DNA from: Bacteroidota bacterium
GTDB lineage: Bacteria > Bacteroidota > Bacteroidia > Chitinophagales > Saprospiraceae
DNA: 58,100 nt
Direction: 5' to 3'
NCBI GenBank assembly: GCA_020160935.1
Contig: JAIUPL010000033.1
Span: 1-58,100, forward strand
Part shown: positions 9,995 through 26,790 of the stretch, piece by piece
Position numbering within the stretch: position 1 is the stretch's first letter
Layout: every line of letters begins with the position of its first letter
The notes under the pieces: model-generated
The model's input: the letters and a program-made list of their open reading frames with translations, nothing else
Database searches by the model: none
Told to the model about the DNA's origin: nothing
Translations under genes and position numbers: made by a program

Positions 9995-11584
9995 ATGACT
10001 CGTTTTTTCTCTCTTTTCGCGCTCCTCTTGGGGCTTGTCGCTACTTTACCTGCCCAAAAAGCAGTGGTAAAAATCAGCCCGGAATTCAAACTTTCCAAAA
10101 GCAAAACTTTTGAAGGACACCTTTATTCAGATGCCACCGGGCACTACATGTATTTTTATGATGGTAACAGAAATGCATTTACCGGCAGGGCTACCGATGT
10201 AACTACCGTATTGGAAAAGTACGATCCGACGTTCAAACTGATTTACAGTAAAAACTACGAATCCGACCGCAAAGGTGTGTCCACCATGGGCATGCGCTAT
10301 TTCAACGGCCAATTTGTGTGGCTGCTTTCAGAAGCCAACAAAAAAGAAGATTTTATCCGATACAGTATCGTGCCGCTCGACCTGGCCGGCAAACAAGGCA
10401 AACGCCAGGACATCGCAAAATTCAAGTATGAAAGCCGGGACGATATTCCTACCGTGCTGTGGAATGTGTCGAAAGACTCCACCAAACTCCTGTTCCGGGC
10501 CGTATCGGACGACGACCGCGACGACGAGCCATTCCGCATTTTCATCTCTGTGATGAACAAAGACTTGTCGGTAGACTGGTCGCGAAAACTTTCCCTGCGC
10601 CACACCGAAGAGCAAACCGAAGTGTTGGCCACCCTCCTGAAAAATGATGGTAGCGTGTTTATGCTTGCCAAAATTTACGAAGGCAAAAAAGCCAAGGAAA
10701 GCAAGAAGAACGACAAGAAAAAGTCGGTAGCAGCCTACGACATCGTGCTATACAAATTTTCGAAAGACAGCGAAGACCCCAAGGAATACAAACTCCAGTT
10801 GGGTGACTCGTTCATTCGCGGCGCTTCCCTTACAACCGATTTGAGCGACAACCTGAAATGCGCCGGTTTTTATTCCAATACAAAAAACGGCAGCCTGCAA
10901 GGCGTGTTTTACCTCGACCTGGGCGTAGATGGCGTGGTGAAGGCCAGCAATAAAAAAGAGTTTTCAGTAGCCGACCTCAAGAAATTTGGCGATAAAAACA
11001 CCGACAAAGACAAAACCGGCTCGGAAGGTCTGGAAAGTTCATTTAAGTTCAGCGACTTCCTTGTGCGCGACGACAATTCAGCCGTGGTTGTGGCTGAAGA
11101 GAATTATGTGGTAACGCATACTTCCTACAACGGCCGTACCTGGACCACCACGTACGAATACAACTCGCGCGACATCATCATTTTTACCATCAATTCCAAA
11201 GGTGAAATCGAACGTGTGAGCGCCATCCCGAAATACCAGATCGGCGTCAATACCGACTTCTTCATTTCCTATGTGTCGCTCCTGCATGGCAACGATGTGG
11301 TGTTCTTCTACAACGAAGATGAGGACAATATGGACAAGCCGGTGTCGAATACCAAACCCAAATTGGTCAACTCTTTCAAAGACTGCGTTGCGGTAATGAC
11401 CACCCTTTCGCCGGATGGCAAACTGGTGCGCAAACAACTTTTTGAAGCAAAAGACATCGAATCCCTTTTCGTTCCGAAAGACAGCAGCCCGTTCGGGAAA
11501 AACCAGTTGTTCTTTGTTTCCATCAAACCGAAATTGTTCAGCAAAAGCAATTTCCACATGGGAACGGTGACGCTGCCGGAGTGA
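9995..11584 (+). CDS. Exported protein of unknown function
   Basis: 529 residues with a signal peptide (about 1-20, ALLLGLVATLPAQ). The rest is soluble, with repeated beta-type segments (FVWLLSEANK, SVFMLAKIYEG, DVVFFYNEDED) that resemble a beta-propeller. A lysine-rich stretch (KKAKESKKNDKKK) is near residue 230. I recognise no catalytic motif and no T9SS tail, so it is probably periplasmic. The next bases after the stop codon enter a heptamer array. Confidence 0.6.
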   Translation: MTRFFSLFALLLGLVATLPAQKAVVKISPEFKLSKSKTFEGHLYSDATGHYMYFYDGNRNAFTGRATDVTTVLEKYDPTFKLIYSKNYESDRKGVSTMGMRYFNGQFVWLLSEANKKEDFIRYSIVPLDLAGKQGKRQDIAKFKYESRDDIPTVLWNVSKDSTKLLFRAVSDDDRDDEPFRIFISVMNKDLSVDWSRKLSLRHTEEQTEVLATLLKNDGSVFMLAKIYEGKKAKESKKNDKKKSVAAYDIVLYKFSKDSEDPKEYKLQLGDSFIRGASLTTDLSDNLKCAGFYSNTKNGSLQGVFYLDLGVDGVVKASNKKEFSVADLKKFGDKNTDKDKTGSEGLESSFKFSDFLVRDDNSAVVVAEENYVVTHTSYNGRTWTTTYEYNSRDIIIFTINSKGEIERVSAIPKYQIGVNTDFFISYVSLLHGNDVVFFYNEDEDNMDKPVSNTKPKLVNSFKDCVAVMTTLSPDGKLVRKQLFEAKDIESLFVPKDSSPFGKNQLFFVSIKPKLFSKSNFHMGTVTLPE

Positions 11585-11585
11585 T

Positions 11586-11725
11586 GAGTGTTGAGTGATG
11601 AGTGATGAGTTATGAGTGATGAGTGTTGAGTGTTGAGTGTTGAGTGTTGAGTGATGAGTTTTACTCACTTTGCTTTTGGCGTCTTCAATAGAGTAGCCAA
11701 AAGCAAAGTGAGTAAAACTCATCAC
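11586..11725. repeat. Heptamer array (GAGTGWT, ten units) plus a perfect 30-bp-arm hairpin
   Basis: Ten 7-bp units of GAGTGAT/GAGTGTT/GAGTTAT run from 11586 to 11655, starting 1 bp after the upstream stop. Arms 11651-11680 and 11696-11725 are perfect reverse complements with a 15-nt loop. Beyond the right arm, TCATAACTCATAACT continues as imperfect complements of the array. The genes on either side run in the same direction, so this is not limited to convergent gaps. Confidence 0.9.
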
Positions 11726-11852: not shown

Positions 11853-14305
11853 ATGATTCAAACCTTTAAAATCTGTAGGCTCGCAGCAAGCCTTTTCCTT
11901 GCTGTAAGTGCGACTTTTGTATTTGCACAAAACGCTTCTGTGCGCGGAAGTATTCAACTAAGCATCCAAAATGCTGAAAAACAGCCCTTGGAGGGCGTTT
12001 CCATCGGGCTTATGCGCCTGCAGGACTCTACCCTCGCCAAAATTGGCATTACCGACAATGCCGGCGTCGCGCTCATCGATGAAATCAAACCGGGTGCTTA
12101 TTTCCTGACGGCCTATCTGATCGGTCACGACAAGTATAGTTCGGCTTCTCTGTTGATCGATGATCAGCATATGCAGTTGGAACTCCCGGCCATCCAACTG
12201 GAGCGCACTACACAGGCGCTTTCGGAAGTAACCGTAGCCAGCAAAAAGCCATTTCTGGAACGCCAACTCGACAAACTTGTCATCAACGTAGAAAGCAGCA
12301 TCACTTCCACAGGTAGTTCGGTGCTGGAAGTACTCGAACGCGCGCCTGGCGTATTGATCAATCAGGAAACTTCCATCAACCTCAAAGGTCGGGCAGGTGT
12401 GATTGTGATGATCGACGGAAAAATATCGCCCCTCGCAGGCGCCGAATTGATTCAGTACCTCAAAGGTATTCCTGCTGCCAACATCGACAAGATTGAGATC
12501 ATCACCAACCCTTCTGCCCGCTACGATGCCGCAGGCAATGCAGGTATTATCAATATTCGGTTCAAAAAAGACCAACGACAGGGCTTCAACGGGTCTGTAT
12601 CGCTCAGCGCAGGACAAGGTTTTTACTTCAAACCTTCCGGCAGTACCAACCTGAATTTCAGGAAAAAGAAATGGAACCTGTTCGGCAATTACTCCTACGG
12701 GCAGCCGAAAGGGTTTACGCGCTTTTTTATCAATCGAAAGTTTTTTGACGACCAACACGAAGTACAATCGGTGTTCGATCAGAACTCTTTTACGCACCAG
12801 CCTTTTAAAAACCACACCGGGAAAATAGGCGCTGATTTCTATGCAGGTAAAAAAACGGTGATCGGCGCCATGCTAAGTGGAACAGCCATCGGCAGCAAAC
12901 GCGACGCATATACCTACGCCACCATTTCCGATGCAGAAAGCGCCTTGCAATACACGACCGAAACCAAGGGTATTCTGAAAGAAAAGCGCTGGAACGGCTT
13001 CGGCAACCTCAATTTCAAACACACCATCGACAGCACAGGCAAGGAACTGACGATGGACGTCGACTATGGCCGTTTTAATTCAAAAGTGAAACAACACATT
13101 GTTACTGAACAGTTTGCCTTTGCTGCCCCACCGCCGCCGGGTTTCATCCTGAATACCGACCAGCAGGGTCTTATCCAGGTAAAATCGGTCAAAGCCGATT
13201 ACGTGCAGCCCATGAAAAAAGATGCCAAACTCGAAGCGGGCATCAAATCCAGCATCGTGGAAACCGATAATGACATCCAGTTTTTCAACGAAATAAACGG
13301 CGTCAACGAACTGGATCTGAACCTGTCCAACCATTTCATTTACAAGGAAAATATCAACGCTGCCTACCTCAATTATGCCCGATCTTTCGCACGCATGGAC
13401 ATTCAGGCTGGCCTGCGCCTGGAACAAACCAGGACACAGGGCAATCAGATTTCTACCGGAGAGGAGTTTGAGCGCAAATACGCGTACCTGTTCCCCAGCA
13501 TTTTTGTGAATAGAAAACTGTCCGAAAACCACCTCCTGTCATTCTCCTATAGCCGCCGCATCGACCGGCCGGATTACCGCCAACTGAATCCGTTCCGCAT
13601 TTTTGTCGATTCGTACACCTATGTGGTCGGCGACCCATCGCTCAAACCCGTCCTTTCCAATTCTTTCGAACTCAGCCATACGCTGCAACAGAAATACAGC
13701 CTGACGCTATCGTATGTGCAAAGTAAAGAAGTGATTACGGACGTGTTTGTACAAGACGATTCCACAAAAATCTCCTATCAAATACCAGCCAATTTACAAA
13801 ATTTCGAACAGATAAGCCTGGGCGCGTCCGTCCCCTTCAGCATAGGCAAGTGGATGAATAGCAGCATCAATGGCAGCATTTATTATAATCGATACACCAG
13901 CCTGTTTCAAAGAGGACAATTGTTGAATACATCCGTTTCCTGGGATATGAATGTCAACAATGCCTTCGCACTGGGCAAAGGCTGGTCGGCCGAATTGAGC
14001 GGCATGTACCAGTCGCGCATGGCCTGGGGGCTATTCATCATCCGCGACCTGGCTCAAATTAGCGCTGGTTTGCAAAAAACCTCCGCCAACAAACTGTCTA
14101 CCCTCAAACTGTCCATGTCGGACATTTTCTACACCAACCATATTGCCGTGATCGTGCAATACCAAAACCAGGACTGGTACACCGATCGCACCTGGGATTC
14201 CAAGGTCGTCACCCTTTCCTACGTCCAGCGTTTTGGCAAAAACACCGTTCAACAGGCCCGCAGGCGTACGAGCGGGATTGAGGATGAGAAGAAGAGAGCA
14301 GGTTA

Positions 14306-14306
<1 letters not shown>
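11853..14306 (+). CDS. TonB-dependent outer-membrane receptor
   Basis: 817 residues with a signal peptide (about 1-26). An N-terminal carboxypeptidase-regulatory-like beta domain (VRGSIQLSIQNAEKQPLEGVSIGLM) is followed by a plug-type region (LEVLERAPGVLINQETSINLKGRAGVIVMIDGK...IEIITNPSARYDAAGNAGIINI) and a large barrel. This is the Bacteroidota outer membrane beta-barrel receptor class, a TonB-driven importer or signalling receptor. The substrate cannot be told. No SusD-like partner is adjacent, so a polysaccharide-utilisation locus is unlikely. A 12-copy heptamer array begins at its stop codon. Confidence 0.8.
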
Positions 14307-14393
<87 letters not shown>

Positions 14394-19797: not shown

Positions 19798-19900
19798 GTG
19801 TAACAGATCAAAAGTTTGGGCGAAAGATATTTCGCCTGGAAGTCGGAATGGTAATCTTCATTCGTCTTTTTACAGGAATGTTGATTTAATATCCTGCTGA

Positions 19901-20074
19901 GATTTGACAACTTTTTGGAAAGTTGTCAAATCTCAACATGGGTATTCAGATTTGACAACTTTTTGGAAAGTTGTCAAATCTCAACATGGGTATTCAGATT
20001 TGACAACTTTTGGAAAGTTGTCAAATCTCAGCATGGCTACTCAGATTTGACAACTTTTGGAAAGTTGTCAAATC
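19901..20074. repeat. Four tandem hairpins, 48-bp period
   Basis: Four copies of a hairpin with a 14-bp stem GATTTGACAACTTT / AAAGTTGTCAAATC start at 19901, 19949, 19997 and 20044. Loops are TTGG in the first two and TGG in the last two. Linkers (TCAACATGGGTATTCA) are nearly identical. The array fills most of the 358-bp gap between two minus-strand genes and lies 3' of the metalloprotease gene. A related single hairpin with a compensated base change is at 22851-22879. Confidence 0.95.
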
Positions 20075-22886: not shown

Positions 22887-24413
22887 TCACTTCAACTCCT
22901 GCAAAAACGCCTCCAGGCTTTGGTCTTCAGAAAGTGCCAGTCGGCGGCGCAGTCGGGCGCGTCCTTTTTTGACCGTAGAATCCGACACGCCCAGCATGGT
23001 AGCAATTTCATGGCGATGCAGGTTGATTTTCAGCAACAGGCTCAGGCGTTCTTCTGCGCTGGTAATATCGGGGAAGGCAGTGCGCAAACGATGCAGGTAA
23101 TTCGGATAACTGCGCTCGAACATTTGTTTAAAAGTATTCCAGTCCTGCTCGGTGAGTATGCGAAAATTGTACAGATCGCTGCCGTTTGGTGTGCTTTCAT
23201 TGTCTTCCGCTGTGTGGGTTTCTATCTGATTTTCTGCATTCAAGGCTGTTTCGAGTTCCAGCAGTCGCGCATTTTTATCCAGCAATACGCGGGCAAATTC
23301 ATGCAGTTGCGCCCGGTTGCGTCGCAAGGCCCGTTTGGCCGCAATGGCTTTGGAGCGCCAGTACAGCAATCCGATACTGCCTGCGATACCCGACCCGATC
23401 CACAACAACCAGAACAGTCTTCGGCGCGCAGCCGAGGCCTGTTCTTCAGCACGCAGCAACATAATTTCCTGCTCTTTTTCCCGGGTTTTATATGCTACTT
23501 CCAGTTCCTGCAGGCGTTTTACTTTATCCGCTTTGAAAATGGAATCTTTTAATGACACCGCCTTTTTGAAAAGGGGAAGCGCCTCTGCTGTATTGCCTTG
23601 TGCTTCTGCTATTTGCGACAGGCGTTCCAGCGAACGAGCCTTGATATGCATTTGTCCGGAACTGTCGGCCAAGCCAATAGCCTGGTTCAGGTACCGTTTT
23701 GCTTCAGGAATATTACCTATTTCGCGGTGGCAGTCTCCAATATTGAGGCTCATACCTGGTAACTGATCCAGCACACCCGAACGATACATCAACATCAGCG
23801 CCGTATCCAGCAAAGGCAGGGCTTCTTTCCAGCGGCCGTCGTCGCTGTAGGTAAATGCCATTTGGTTGTAGGCAGCTCATCGCTCGATGTCGGAACCATA
23901 ATATTTCAGGATATCAAAACCTTTTTGGGCCATTTCAAAAGCCTTGTCGGGCATATTGGCCCGGCCATAAAAGGCAGACAAGGTGGAATACGTGCGCCCG
24001 ATGCGCGTGGAATCGCCGCTGCGTATAAAGGCTTCGAGCACAGGAATGCCAATCTGGATGGATTTGTCAAGTTCGCCCAGTCGGTCGTACACGCAGGCCA
24101 TGTCGAGGCGTGAATCGTAATAGTTGAACGAGTCGGCATCTACGGCTGCGGAGTCCATCGATTGCTGATACAATGCAAGCGCTCGGTCGTAATCCGTGCT
24201 TTGCACCGCAGAGTCGCCCGCCTGATTCAGGAGAAAGGCAGCCGTTATGTCGGAGTTCTCCTCCTCTTCGGCTTCGGCGGGTTGTGTCGGGGCAGGATTC
24301 TGATTACAGCCAACAAGAATCATGCACCACAGAGATACTTGTGCAAAAAAAACGAGTAAAAAACGGGCGTGTGTCACTTTCAATAGTTTTCTTATTGAGT
24401 TGTGTAAGAGCAT
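22887..24413 (-). pseudogene. TPR-transmembrane-HTH regulator interrupted by an in-frame TGA
   Basis: One frame of about 508 codons is cut by a TGA at 23877-23879. Before it (178 codons): a lipoprotein-like leader (CMILVGC) and TPR helices. After it, in the same frame with no length change: AAYNQMAFTYSDDGRWKEALPLL, a canonical TPR helix, then more TPRs, a transmembrane helix (FWLLWIGSGIAGSIGLLYW), a coiled coil and a LuxR-like HTH (AEERLSLLLKINLHRHEIATMLGVSDSTVKKGRARLRRRL). Both halves look well conserved, so the stop is recent, a sequencing error or read through. A restart at the ATG at 23861 would begin inside a TPR helix and lack the export signal. Confidence 0.8.
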
Positions 24414-24639: not shown

Positions 24640-26790
24640 ATGAAAAACATCCTCCTTGCACTTTCGGTTTCGTTGATCGCCGGTCTGTTTGCCTGTAAAA
24701 AGACGCCGTTTTTGCGTCCAGTCAAATACGTGGCGTATGTGGGTTTCAACTACCTCGATCCCGAAAAGAACAAGGCCAACAACTACCTCGATTCGCTGTA
24801 TATCGTTTCGCTGGAAACCTACCTGGGGCGCATCAATGCACGGACAGAACCGGCACCCTACCCCGTCGAATTTAGGTTAAAAACCTTCCAGTGCGACTTC
24901 AAACCGGATACCATCCCGGCGCTGTATCAGGCCATCACGGCGGATACAAACATAGCGCTGGTGATCGACAACACCTGGGGGCGCTACATCCGTTTTGCGG
25001 CACCGTACATCCGCGACCGGCTGCCTGTGATGTCGATGAGTGCCGACCAGAACCGCCTCGATTTCGGGAAAAATGCCATTTTTCTGCAACCCAACGACCC
25101 GCAACCCAATTATTTCGTGCAGTTTATCGACAAGGTGCTGAAAAAACAGTCGGTGGGTTTTGTGACGGAATGCGACTACCTGCTGCACAACCTTTTCACG
25201 GAAAGCATGCAAAAAAACGGGTTTCGATATGACTCTGTATGCCTTTGGCAGCGCAGTTATATCCAGAACCGTGAAGTTCCCAGAGACTCGGTAGTAGTGA
25301 TGGAACGTTCGCTGCGCAGAATGCTGGAAAAACCGCAACCCGAAATTATCCTGCTGAATACCCACACGGGCTATGGTGATTCTATCATGCGTTTTCTGGA
25401 ACGCAGCAAACTGCCGCCCAAAACTTTTGTAGGCATCTCAACCGACCTGAACGACCAGGAAATAGAAAAAATTTCCCGCGAACGCGGCCATACTTTTATC
25501 CGATATGCTGCAGCCGACGAGGCTTTGCCAGAAGAGGTGTACCGCGACCAAAAAGAGATTGAAAAACGTTTTCCGCAACCCTTCTTCCACCACGACCCAA
25601 AAAAGGTGCGGCAGGCGGAAAACAACCTGCGCCGCTGCTCCGATGCCATGAAGATTTTTGAGATTGCCTTGCAGGAAAAATGCAATGACCGCGCTTCTCT
25701 GGTGTCGTATTTCAAAAGCCTGCAAAACCGCAAGATTTCCAGCAACGACGACTTGTTCGAATTCGACAGCCTGCTGATTCAACGAAAAGACCCGAATTTC
25801 GACCAGATTCACGGCGGCAAAACCCGCAGTTGCGCCACGCAGATCAATACCTACGGCGAGCCCATTGCCAACCTGCGTGTGGGCCTCGATGTGATCGACA
25901 TCAACGACATCGACGTGCGCAAAAACACCTTCGACTGCAACCTGCTGTACTGGGTCATTGCCGATTCGCAGTACATCAGCAAGGAAGGTTACATCGATTT
26001 CAGCAACATCAGTTCGGAAGAGGCCAACCGCTACCTCATTGCAGAAGAACGCGACAGCAACTATGTGGTGCGCATCTACCGCATCAGCGGAAAGTTTCTG
26101 GGCAATTTCAAATCGTTCAAGTTTCCATTCGACCGCCACGAACTGAAAATCCCTATCGCGGCACTTAGTTCGAGCAACAAGATTCGCATCAGTTTCGATT
26201 ACAGCCGACTTCAGATCAACGACAAAATCAAGGATTTTCAATTCAACGACTGGGACACCCAGGAGTATTTCGTGACGCTCGACAACCAATTGTCCAATGC
26301 GCTCGGCTCGCTCGACAAGGTGACCTACGACCCTACCGACAAGGCGCGCTACCTGGAAAACTACAAAAGCCTCAACGTACACCTCGGCGTGAGCCGCCAG
26401 CCCTGGGGCGCTATCATCCTGATTATCATGCCTTTCCTGATGTTCAGCGCGCTACCGGTGTTCATGTTGTTTTTCCACAAGGCCAGTTTCGAGGAGGTAG
26501 GTGAACTGATCATCACGTCCTTCCTTGCCACAGTGGCTTACTCGATCAACCTGGTGCAGATTTCGCCCGCCACCGATTCCATGAACCTGGCTTATATCTT
26601 CCTGATGCTGACGCTGGCGGTGAATTTCTTCTGTTTTATTTACGTAACGATTATCGACCGGCAAAAGAAACCTGTAACAAATGAGGCCTCGGAAACACCT
26701 CCCCGGCATACCAGTATGCTGCGTATCTGGATGCCGGTGGTGGTGATACTTTTGGTTTCCCTGATGCTGTTGTACTGGTGGATGGGATGA
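24640..26790 (+). CDS. Pentameric ligand-gated ion channel fused to a periplasmic-binding-protein-like receptor domain
   Basis: 716 residues from MKNILLAL (the ATG at 24595 only adds a non-signal leader). A lipoprotein-type leader ends in LFAC (Cys19). Residues about 25-330 alternate strands and helices like a type I periplasmic binding protein (AYVGFNYLD...IALVIDNTWG...LPVMSMSAD...VGFVTECDY...PEIILLNTH). Residues about 410-588 fit a Cys-loop receptor extracellular domain, including the signature FPFDRHEL (495-502). Four membrane helices follow: M1 589-612 with the conserved Pro (IIMPFLMFS), M2 about 618-641 (GELIITSFLATVAYSINL), M3 648-672, M4 693-716. M2-M3 resembles GLIC. It is likely an inner-membrane channel gated by a periplasmic solute. 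Ligand and ion are unknown. Confidence 0.85.
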   Translation: MKNILLALSVSLIAGLFACKKTPFLRPVKYVAYVGFNYLDPEKNKANNYLDSLYIVSLETYLGRINARTEPAPYPVEFRLKTFQCDFKPDTIPALYQAITADTNIALVIDNTWGRYIRFAAPYIRDRLPVMSMSADQNRLDFGKNAIFLQPNDPQPNYFVQFIDKVLKKQSVGFVTECDYLLHNLFTESMQKNGFRYDSVCLWQRSYIQNREVPRDSVVVMERSLRRMLEKPQPEIILLNTHTGYGDSIMRFLERSKLPPKTFVGISTDLNDQEIEKISRERGHTFIRYAAADEALPEEVYRDQKEIEKRFPQPFFHHDPKKVRQAENNLRRCSDAMKIFEIALQEKCNDRASLVSYFKSLQNRKISSNDDLFEFDSLLIQRKDPNFDQIHGGKTRSCATQINTYGEPIANLRVGLDVIDINDIDVRKNTFDCNLLYWVIADSQYISKEGYIDFSNISSEEANRYLIAEERDSNYVVRIYRISGKFLGNFKSFKFPFDRHELKIPIAALSSSNKIRISFDYSRLQINDKIKDFQFNDWDTQEYFVTLDNQLSNALGSLDKVTYDPTDKARYLENYKSLNVHLGVSRQPWGAIILIIMPFLMFSALPVFMLFFHKASFEEVGELIITSFLATVAYSINLVQISPATDSMNLAYIFLMLTLAVNFFCFIYVTIIDRQKKPVTNEASETPPRHTSMLRIWMPVVVILLVSLMLLYWWMG

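Follow-up and report, generated by a model that had tools for sequence, protein, structure and literature searches.

Sequence comparison confirmed that a single gene in the window (the whole stretch of DNA analysed, 58,100 nucleotides, from the 5.8-Mb draft genome of an uncultured Saprospiraceae bacterium) joins a flytrap domain of the type I periplasmic-binding-protein (PBP-I) class to a predicted ion channel of the pentameric ligand-gated (pLGIC) type, the family to which the acetylcholine and GABA receptors of animals belong. The gene lies on the plus strand as a single open frame, running from an ATG at 24640 to a TGA at 26788-26790 without an internal stop, and encodes 716 amino acids. 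The start codon is supported by the orthologues, whose leaders begin at the same place or within some residues of it, the orthologue starts having been placed by choice at an upstream Met. The leader type and the domain order are common to 18 further full or near-full-length orthologues of the same genus. The features of the gene are as follows.

24640..26790, plus strand: PBP-I/pLGIC fusion gene, 716 aa plus stop.
24640..24696, plus strand: hydrophobic leader, residues 1-19, ending in the invariant Cys19; lipobox-like in the window protein.
24715..25827, plus strand: predicted PBP-I domain, residues ~26-396 (hhalign comparison with 33 PBP-I proteins; sub-threshold Pfam matches in orthologues).
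25828..26394, plus strand: predicted pLGIC extracellular domain, residues ~397-585, with the Pro-loop F495-P496-F497-D498 and beta9 Trp538 (hhalign comparison with 13 simple pLGICs).
26395..26787, plus strand: predicted four-helix channel domain, residues 586-716, with pre-M1 R586, M1 P598, M2, M2-M3 P643, M3 and M4 (alignments and hydropathy).
26485..26559, plus strand: predicted pore helix M2, residues 616-640, with E618 (-2'), E619 (-1'), E622 (2') and L629 (9') (alignments to GLIC and other bacterial pLGICs).

A hydropathy scan of the window protein placed membrane segments at approximately residues 587-614, 623-641, 647-673 and 690-716, besides the leader; the four transmembrane helices claimed in an earlier note on this DNA were thus recovered after the extracellular domain.

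Single-sequence searches of the window protein against Pfam and NCBIfam recognised neither half, and it had no Pfam PBP-I match. Profile-profile comparison with hhalign, on the other hand, aligned the N-terminal half with 33 PBP-I proteins (Prob 95.1, E 3.3e-8, 319 columns). This set comprised 30 high-ranking Peripla_BP_6 loci of 198 genomes together with LivJ, LivK and L070, a separate PBP-I gene from the same genome as the window, whose leader resembles that of a lipoprotein; as most members were collected with the Peripla_BP_6 model of Pfam, coverage is best for that subgroup. The E-value was reached by widening the comparison set to these 33 proteins: with 19 orthologues and a single LivJ or LivK as the target, E was 0.14-0.16, a level that unrelated proteins also attained (FtsE, 0.064). 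The N-terminal half did not match the PBP-I protein RbsB of E. coli (E 0.19), although RbsB was within reach of the widened set (E 2e-4). Two PBP-II proteins (HisJ/ArgT) were not matched either (E 0.03 over 24 columns). In the controls, one reversed and eight shuffled versions of the flytrap half gave E 0.03-0.67, and the channel half gave E 0.32 against the PBP-I set.

Single Pfam models gave traces of the same relationship in the orthologues. Peripla_BP_6 was found in seven of 19 family members at E <= 1; its best match (1.6e-5, residues 63-358 of L013) scored 25.2 bits, under the gathering cut-off of 31.7, and no orthologue PBP-I match seen reached the gathering score. Other sub-threshold matches were ANF_receptor at 6.7e-4 in L015 and Peripla_BP_4 at 1.3e-3 in L020. 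Ten of the 19 members were shown individually: at E <= 0.1, five matched Peripla_BP_6 and one ANF_receptor instead, and L010, L014, L016 and L018 had no PBP-type Pfam match at that threshold. Based on these results, a PBP-I fold is supported for residues ~26-396, in agreement with the solute-binding-like domain suggested by the earlier note.

The invariant residues of the flytrap include N111, T112, W113 and G114, D136 and N138, E177, D179, Y180 and H183, as well as N240 and H242. They sit in stretches that match PBP-I proteins with posteriors of 0.18 to 0.95, and several of them align with what we take to be ligand-binding loops. D136 and H242 align, softly (posteriors 0.22 and 0.43), with residues 125 and 225 of the LivJ precursor, presumably the pocket residues T102 and Y202 in mature LivJ numbering. 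The invariant residues on the presumed cleft side are not those of the leucine-binding protein, which makes a simple branched-chain amino acid a less favoured ligand, and their composition is unlike that of an amino-acid pocket.

The channel half (residues 397-716) was compared with 13 simple pLGICs from the same phylum as the window organism and aligned with them at Prob 98.6 and E 1e-15 over 267 columns (hhalign). An early test with 19 orthologues against only four simple pLGICs had given E 4.7e-5, the improvement having come with the wider comparison set. One reversed and five column-shuffled versions gave E 0.07-0.42, and the N-terminal half gave E 0.43 against the same 13 proteins. For both halves the similarity disappears on reversal or column shuffling, so it is not due to chance. 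In a PDB profile search with a 19-member alignment, the best solved relatives were GLIC entries (E 0.002, residues 578-714); weak as this value is, the earlier description of the M2-M3 region as GLIC-like was a fair one. The window protein alone, searched with phmmer against solved structures, gave weak matches to an AChR beta chain (0.009) and to GLIC (0.024).

Residues F495, P496, D498, W538, R586, P598 and P643 were invariant in 20/20 orthologues, the positions of R586, W538, P598 and P643 being fixed by alignment to GLIC. These are the counterparts of the seven residues found to be most conserved over 561 pLGICs, as tabulated by Jaiteh 2016 (Table 1, PMC4795631). The motif FPFDRHEL, on which the earlier claim of a Cys-loop-type extracellular domain was based, occupies residues 495-502, and that claim is borne out by the match of the channel half to the pLGICs.

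The curated channel models behaved differently. Neur_chan models had no match in any of 19 family members in a Pfam scan, PF02931 had none at the fusion gene at E <= 0.001, and TIGR00860 matched eight of 19 members with a best E of 0.012. We read the silence of Neur_chan as a limit of these models for a divergent branch, and the profile comparison, which overrules the silent Pfam models, supports residues 397-716 as a pLGIC channel half. The earlier note had proposed profile searches with the channel and type I PBP families and had made its claim depend on a match of residues 410-716 to Cys-loop channel profiles. The outcome was divided: both halves matched by profile-profile comparison, the channel half decisively so with the wider set, while the curated Pfam models were silent on the window protein and no curated Pfam channel model fired.

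The pore register agreed between the GLIC alignment and the bacterial pLGIC alignments, placing E622 at 2', and Leu 9' is present as L629. E619 (-1') and E622 (2') were invariant in 20/20 orthologues, and E618 (-2') was kept in 18/20, the other two having D and G. Position 2' lines the narrow part of the pLGIC pore. In 15 other bacterial simple pLGICs used for comparison (13 from the same phylum, one from Azospirillum and one from Streptomyces), the 2' residue was G, S or T in all 15 and an acid in none. A basic residue stands at 0' in 14/15 of the aligned comparators and in 79% of pLGICs in the survey of Jaiteh 2016 (PMC4795631); the fused family has V, A or I there (V620 in the window protein). 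The pore thus departs from the pLGIC norm, being unusual and heavily acidic. Of the segments measured, M2 had the highest conservation (majority-residue frequency 0.96 on average, 18/25 positions invariant). A homopentamer would hold up to fifteen carboxylates at its inner mouth, which makes cation selectivity a natural prediction, and divalent permeation through such a pore is a possibility.

The lipoprotein-type leader claimed earlier is plausible but not secured. Cys19 follows a hydrophobic stretch and was invariant in 20/20 orthologues, which speaks for it; against it, the strict lipobox pattern, which we take to be the PROSITE form, was present in only 5/20, that of the window included. 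The leader cysteine and the first flytrap strand are 7-16 residues apart. If the cysteine were lipidated in the inner membrane, so short a linker would place the flytraps beside the extracellular domain and not on top of it.

The fusion was found in 21/37 genomes of its genus, the window's own included: 19 with full or near-full frames (L002-L020, all unbroken) and two with contig-end pieces. The same search found it in 0/23 genomes of other genera of the order. A wider sample of the order gave full-length matches in 7/396 genomes, all of the same genus and including the window's own, together with one weak channel-only match in another genus; in a phylum sample of 395 genomes, the only matches were that in the window's own genome and a weak one of 41 residues that contains a stop. 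It should be noted that the genus, order and phylum samples overlap. The sole fragment of the fusion seen outside the genus is on a contig of 3.7 kb and low coverage that is assigned to Thermoanaerobaculia (L051) and was probably misbinned. The orthologous contigs are mostly named as Saprospiraceae, Chitinophagales or Bacteroidota/Bacteroidetes metagenome bins. Identity of the orthologues to the window protein ranged from 48 to 95%, down to 50% in the 19-genome set and 48% in a further locus.

Purifying selection is strong on all three parts of the protein. Between the window gene and six close orthologues (L032-L037, of 19 other members), dN/dS was 0.06-0.11 for the flytrap and 0.009-0.03 for the extracellular domain; for the membrane channel domain it was 0.06-0.10 in the four of six orthologues where it was computable, the other two being saturated. 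The mean majority-residue frequency was 0.68 for the flytrap half versus 0.83 for the extracellular domain, and this stronger conservation of the extracellular domain would also fit a ligand site located there. In the channel-domain tree, the 20 fused proteins formed one group apart from the 13 simple pLGICs with full support. The stem of this group was very long (8.3 changes per column) and drew a long-branch warning from the program, so its placement among the pLGICs is unsure. The fused channels are a very divergent pLGIC branch.

The fusion gene stands by itself in the window, with a divergent TPR regulator on one side and an unrelated gene on the other. Of 23 related loci, only the closest (L032) keeps these immediate flanking genes, and the flanks vary widely. 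The TPR-repeat regulator (22887-24413, minus strand) has a weak DNA-binding-like C-terminal match and is split by an in-frame stop at 23877-23879; in L032, a single frame of 495 aa that runs off the contig end seems to span both pieces. In at least 9/23 loci (L038-L044, L048, L049; some of the 23 are truncated), the next gene downstream on the same strand has a GWxTD domain, the assignment resting on three scanned representatives, one of them above the Pfam cut-off. It was considered as a functional partner and rejected: the GWxTD gene occurs in 37/37 genomes of the genus (one with only a weak 49-aa piece), channel or no channel, so co-occurrence does not link it to a channel present in 21/37. 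S15-peptidase-like genes were seen near the fusion in 6/23 loci and POT-transporter-like genes in 4/23 (one representative of each scanned). Elsewhere in the window, positions 19900-20074 carry 3.7 near-identical 47-bp units with an inverted repeat (AGATTTGACAACTTT / AAAGTTGTCAAATCT), for which the ORF list gives a repetitive frame that is probably spurious. An outer-membrane beta-barrel gene at 11853-14303 is flanked by tandem repeats of 7 bp, perfect or nearly so, at 14306-14393 and 11579-11659 (GAATGAT x12.6, GAGTGAT x11.6).

The genome of the window also contains a separate simple pLGIC (L001, G000:C14:207081-207395). The other simple pLGICs found in the phylum mostly have a D-P-R or D-T-R pore motif. 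A tblastn search of a plasmid collection with the window protein returned nothing, and two simple pLGIC queries matched eight Azospirillum, two Streptomyces and one Legionella plasmids. Three of these plasmid pLGICs were checked, and all were of simple length (Azospirillum sp. B510, 346 aa; Streptomyces HUAS 14-6, 378 aa; A. brasilense, 410 codons). On plasmid pAB510b of Azospirillum sp. B510 (L103), the simple pLGIC gene is part of a series of genes on one strand that also includes an alanine racemase, a PBP gene of the ABC_sub_bind family and a peptide ABC binding protein. This PBP gene, whose family presumably belongs to the PBP-I clan, is one gene away from the channel gene and gives one independent pairing of the two modules. 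The gene series might point to D-amino acids or peptides as the ligands in that case.

The earlier note was right in recalling that bacterial homologues with extra N-terminal domains exist, since a PBP-I fusion has been published (PMC549065). Tasneem et al. (2004) reported PBP-I amino-terminal fusions to pLGICs in Magnetospirillum and Bradyrhizobium, which they proposed to be chemotaxis receptors, and their survey also noted PBP-II genes beside pLGIC genes (PMC549065). According to their description, these fusions have the same domain order (PBP-I, pLGIC extracellular domain, four membrane helices); they belong to another phylum than the Saprospiraceae family (PMC549065). Among the matches listed in our literature searches, we know of no other report of a PBP-fused pLGIC, and no functional or structural study of such a fusion was apparent. 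The architecture was thus already known; as far as searched, what is new is the lineage, its divergence, the invariant leader cysteine and the 2' glutamate ring.

Several characterised proteins share part of this architecture. GLIC, the proton-gated channel of Gloeobacter, shares the Pro-loop, the pre-M1 Arg, the M1 Pro and the M2-M3 Pro, and its M2 aligns with that of the fusion without gaps; however, it is without an N-terminal flytrap, has T at 2' where the fusion has E, and is only weakly similar overall. DeCLIC, a calcium-sensitive channel of Desulfofustis, is likewise a bacterial pLGIC whose gating is influenced by an extra periplasmic domain at the N-terminus, but this domain consists of two jelly-roll lobes and not of a PBP (PMC9897478, PMC12664993). 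According to a description from 2022, no other pLGIC with an N-terminal extension had a solved structure, and the N-terminal domain of DeCLIC is dynamic and modulatory (PMC9897478). The N-terminal half of the fusion aligns over 312-319 columns to the set that holds LivJ, LivK and Peripla_BP_6 proteins; LivJ and LivK differ from it at the presumed pocket positions, and the fusion alone is joined to a channel. Ionotropic glutamate receptors also carry a PBP-I domain outside a ligand-gated channel. They are a parallel and not a relative, as they belong to another channel superfamily, and their PBP-II ligand domain, which a re-entrant pore loop splits, was not found in the N-terminal half of the fusion in the comparison with HisJ/ArgT, the remainder being of the pLGIC type.

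Starting from what the sequences themselves carry (the fused gene, the homologies of its two domains, intact coupling residues, acids at the mouth of the pore and purifying selection acting on each of the three parts), we infer a five-fold assembly, ligand binding by the flytrap, gating by that ligand, cation selectivity and a cellular purpose. We consider it reasonably probable that the protein is an inner-membrane pentameric ligand-gated cation channel with one flytrap per subunit, in which the flytrap ligand gates the pore. Five subunits would assemble in the inner membrane facing the periplasm, with the flytrap of each ahead of its normal extracellular domain. On binding a small solute from the periplasm the flytrap would close, and this movement would pass to the adjoining extracellular domain and then reach the M2 gate via the coupling set of Pro-loop, pre-M1 and M2-M3. 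The resulting inward flow of cations would either depolarise the cell or give rise to a cation signal in the cytoplasm. A more specific form of this proposal is a solute-gated, divalent-permeable pLGIC, which we put forward tentatively and regard as rather unlikely. Here five lipid-tethered flytraps would hang beside the channel, given the few residues between the leader cysteine and the first flytrap strand, closure on the ligand would open a pore with up to three stacked carboxylate rings (-2', -1' and 2') at its inner mouth, and calcium or other divalents would enter as the signal.

Other readings place the ligand elsewhere or assign the flytrap a different role. It is possible, at a low level of confidence, that the flytrap, without gating the pore itself, captures and concentrates a solute near the channel, which then binds at the classical site between neighbouring extracellular domains. 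Such a concentrator role was proposed for bacterial PBP fusions by Tasneem et al. (PMC549065), and the extracellular domain, as would be expected of the deciding site, is under the strongest purifying selection (dN/dS 0.009-0.03). Nevertheless, the flytrap retains its own set of invariant polar residues, and a tethered concentrator would gain little unless the ligand were released right at the pocket. More doubtful is a reading in which the N-terminal domain binds nothing and only regulates, in the manner of the calcium-sensitive lobes of DeCLIC, with ions or pH acting via the extracellular domain. The lower conservation of the flytrap half (0.68 versus 0.83) and the dynamic, modulatory nature of the DeCLIC domain (PMC9897478) would agree with this, but the lobes of the latter are jelly-rolls (PMC9897478), and the N-terminal half of the fusion is PBP-I by profile. 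Moreover, several of its invariant residues align with what we take to be PBP-I ligand-binding loops.

That the protein is not a channel at all, serving as a membrane-anchored binding protein or sensor on a pLGIC scaffold without conduction, seems to us very improbable. The unusual pore, lacking a basic 0' residue and carrying extra acids at -1' and 2', could be read in this way, as could the very long branch leading to the fused channels (8.3 changes per column); against it stand the M2 conservation of 0.96, with 18/25 invariant positions, and the intact coupling residues. There is a negligible chance that the fusion is an assembly artefact or a chance join of neighbouring genes. Most of the genomes are draft metagenome bins, and one of the 23 related loci (L032) keeps the immediate flanks. 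The unbroken gene in 19 genomes, in varied gene settings and at identities down to 50% and 48%, refutes an artefact. Our verdict is that the fusion is real, correctly read and unusually testable.

A working example of the proposed ligand-gated cation channel would show a soluble nutrient-binding fold driving a Cys-loop-type channel, as a counterpart of the amino-terminal domains of glutamate receptors. The divalent-permeable form, if true, would be a second way to build what animals built with glutamate receptors. The 2' glutamate ring would offer an unusual natural test of what determines ion selectivity. For the family as a whole, the prediction would be a flytrap ligand in and a cation current out, in a conserved protein with many close orthologues to compare.
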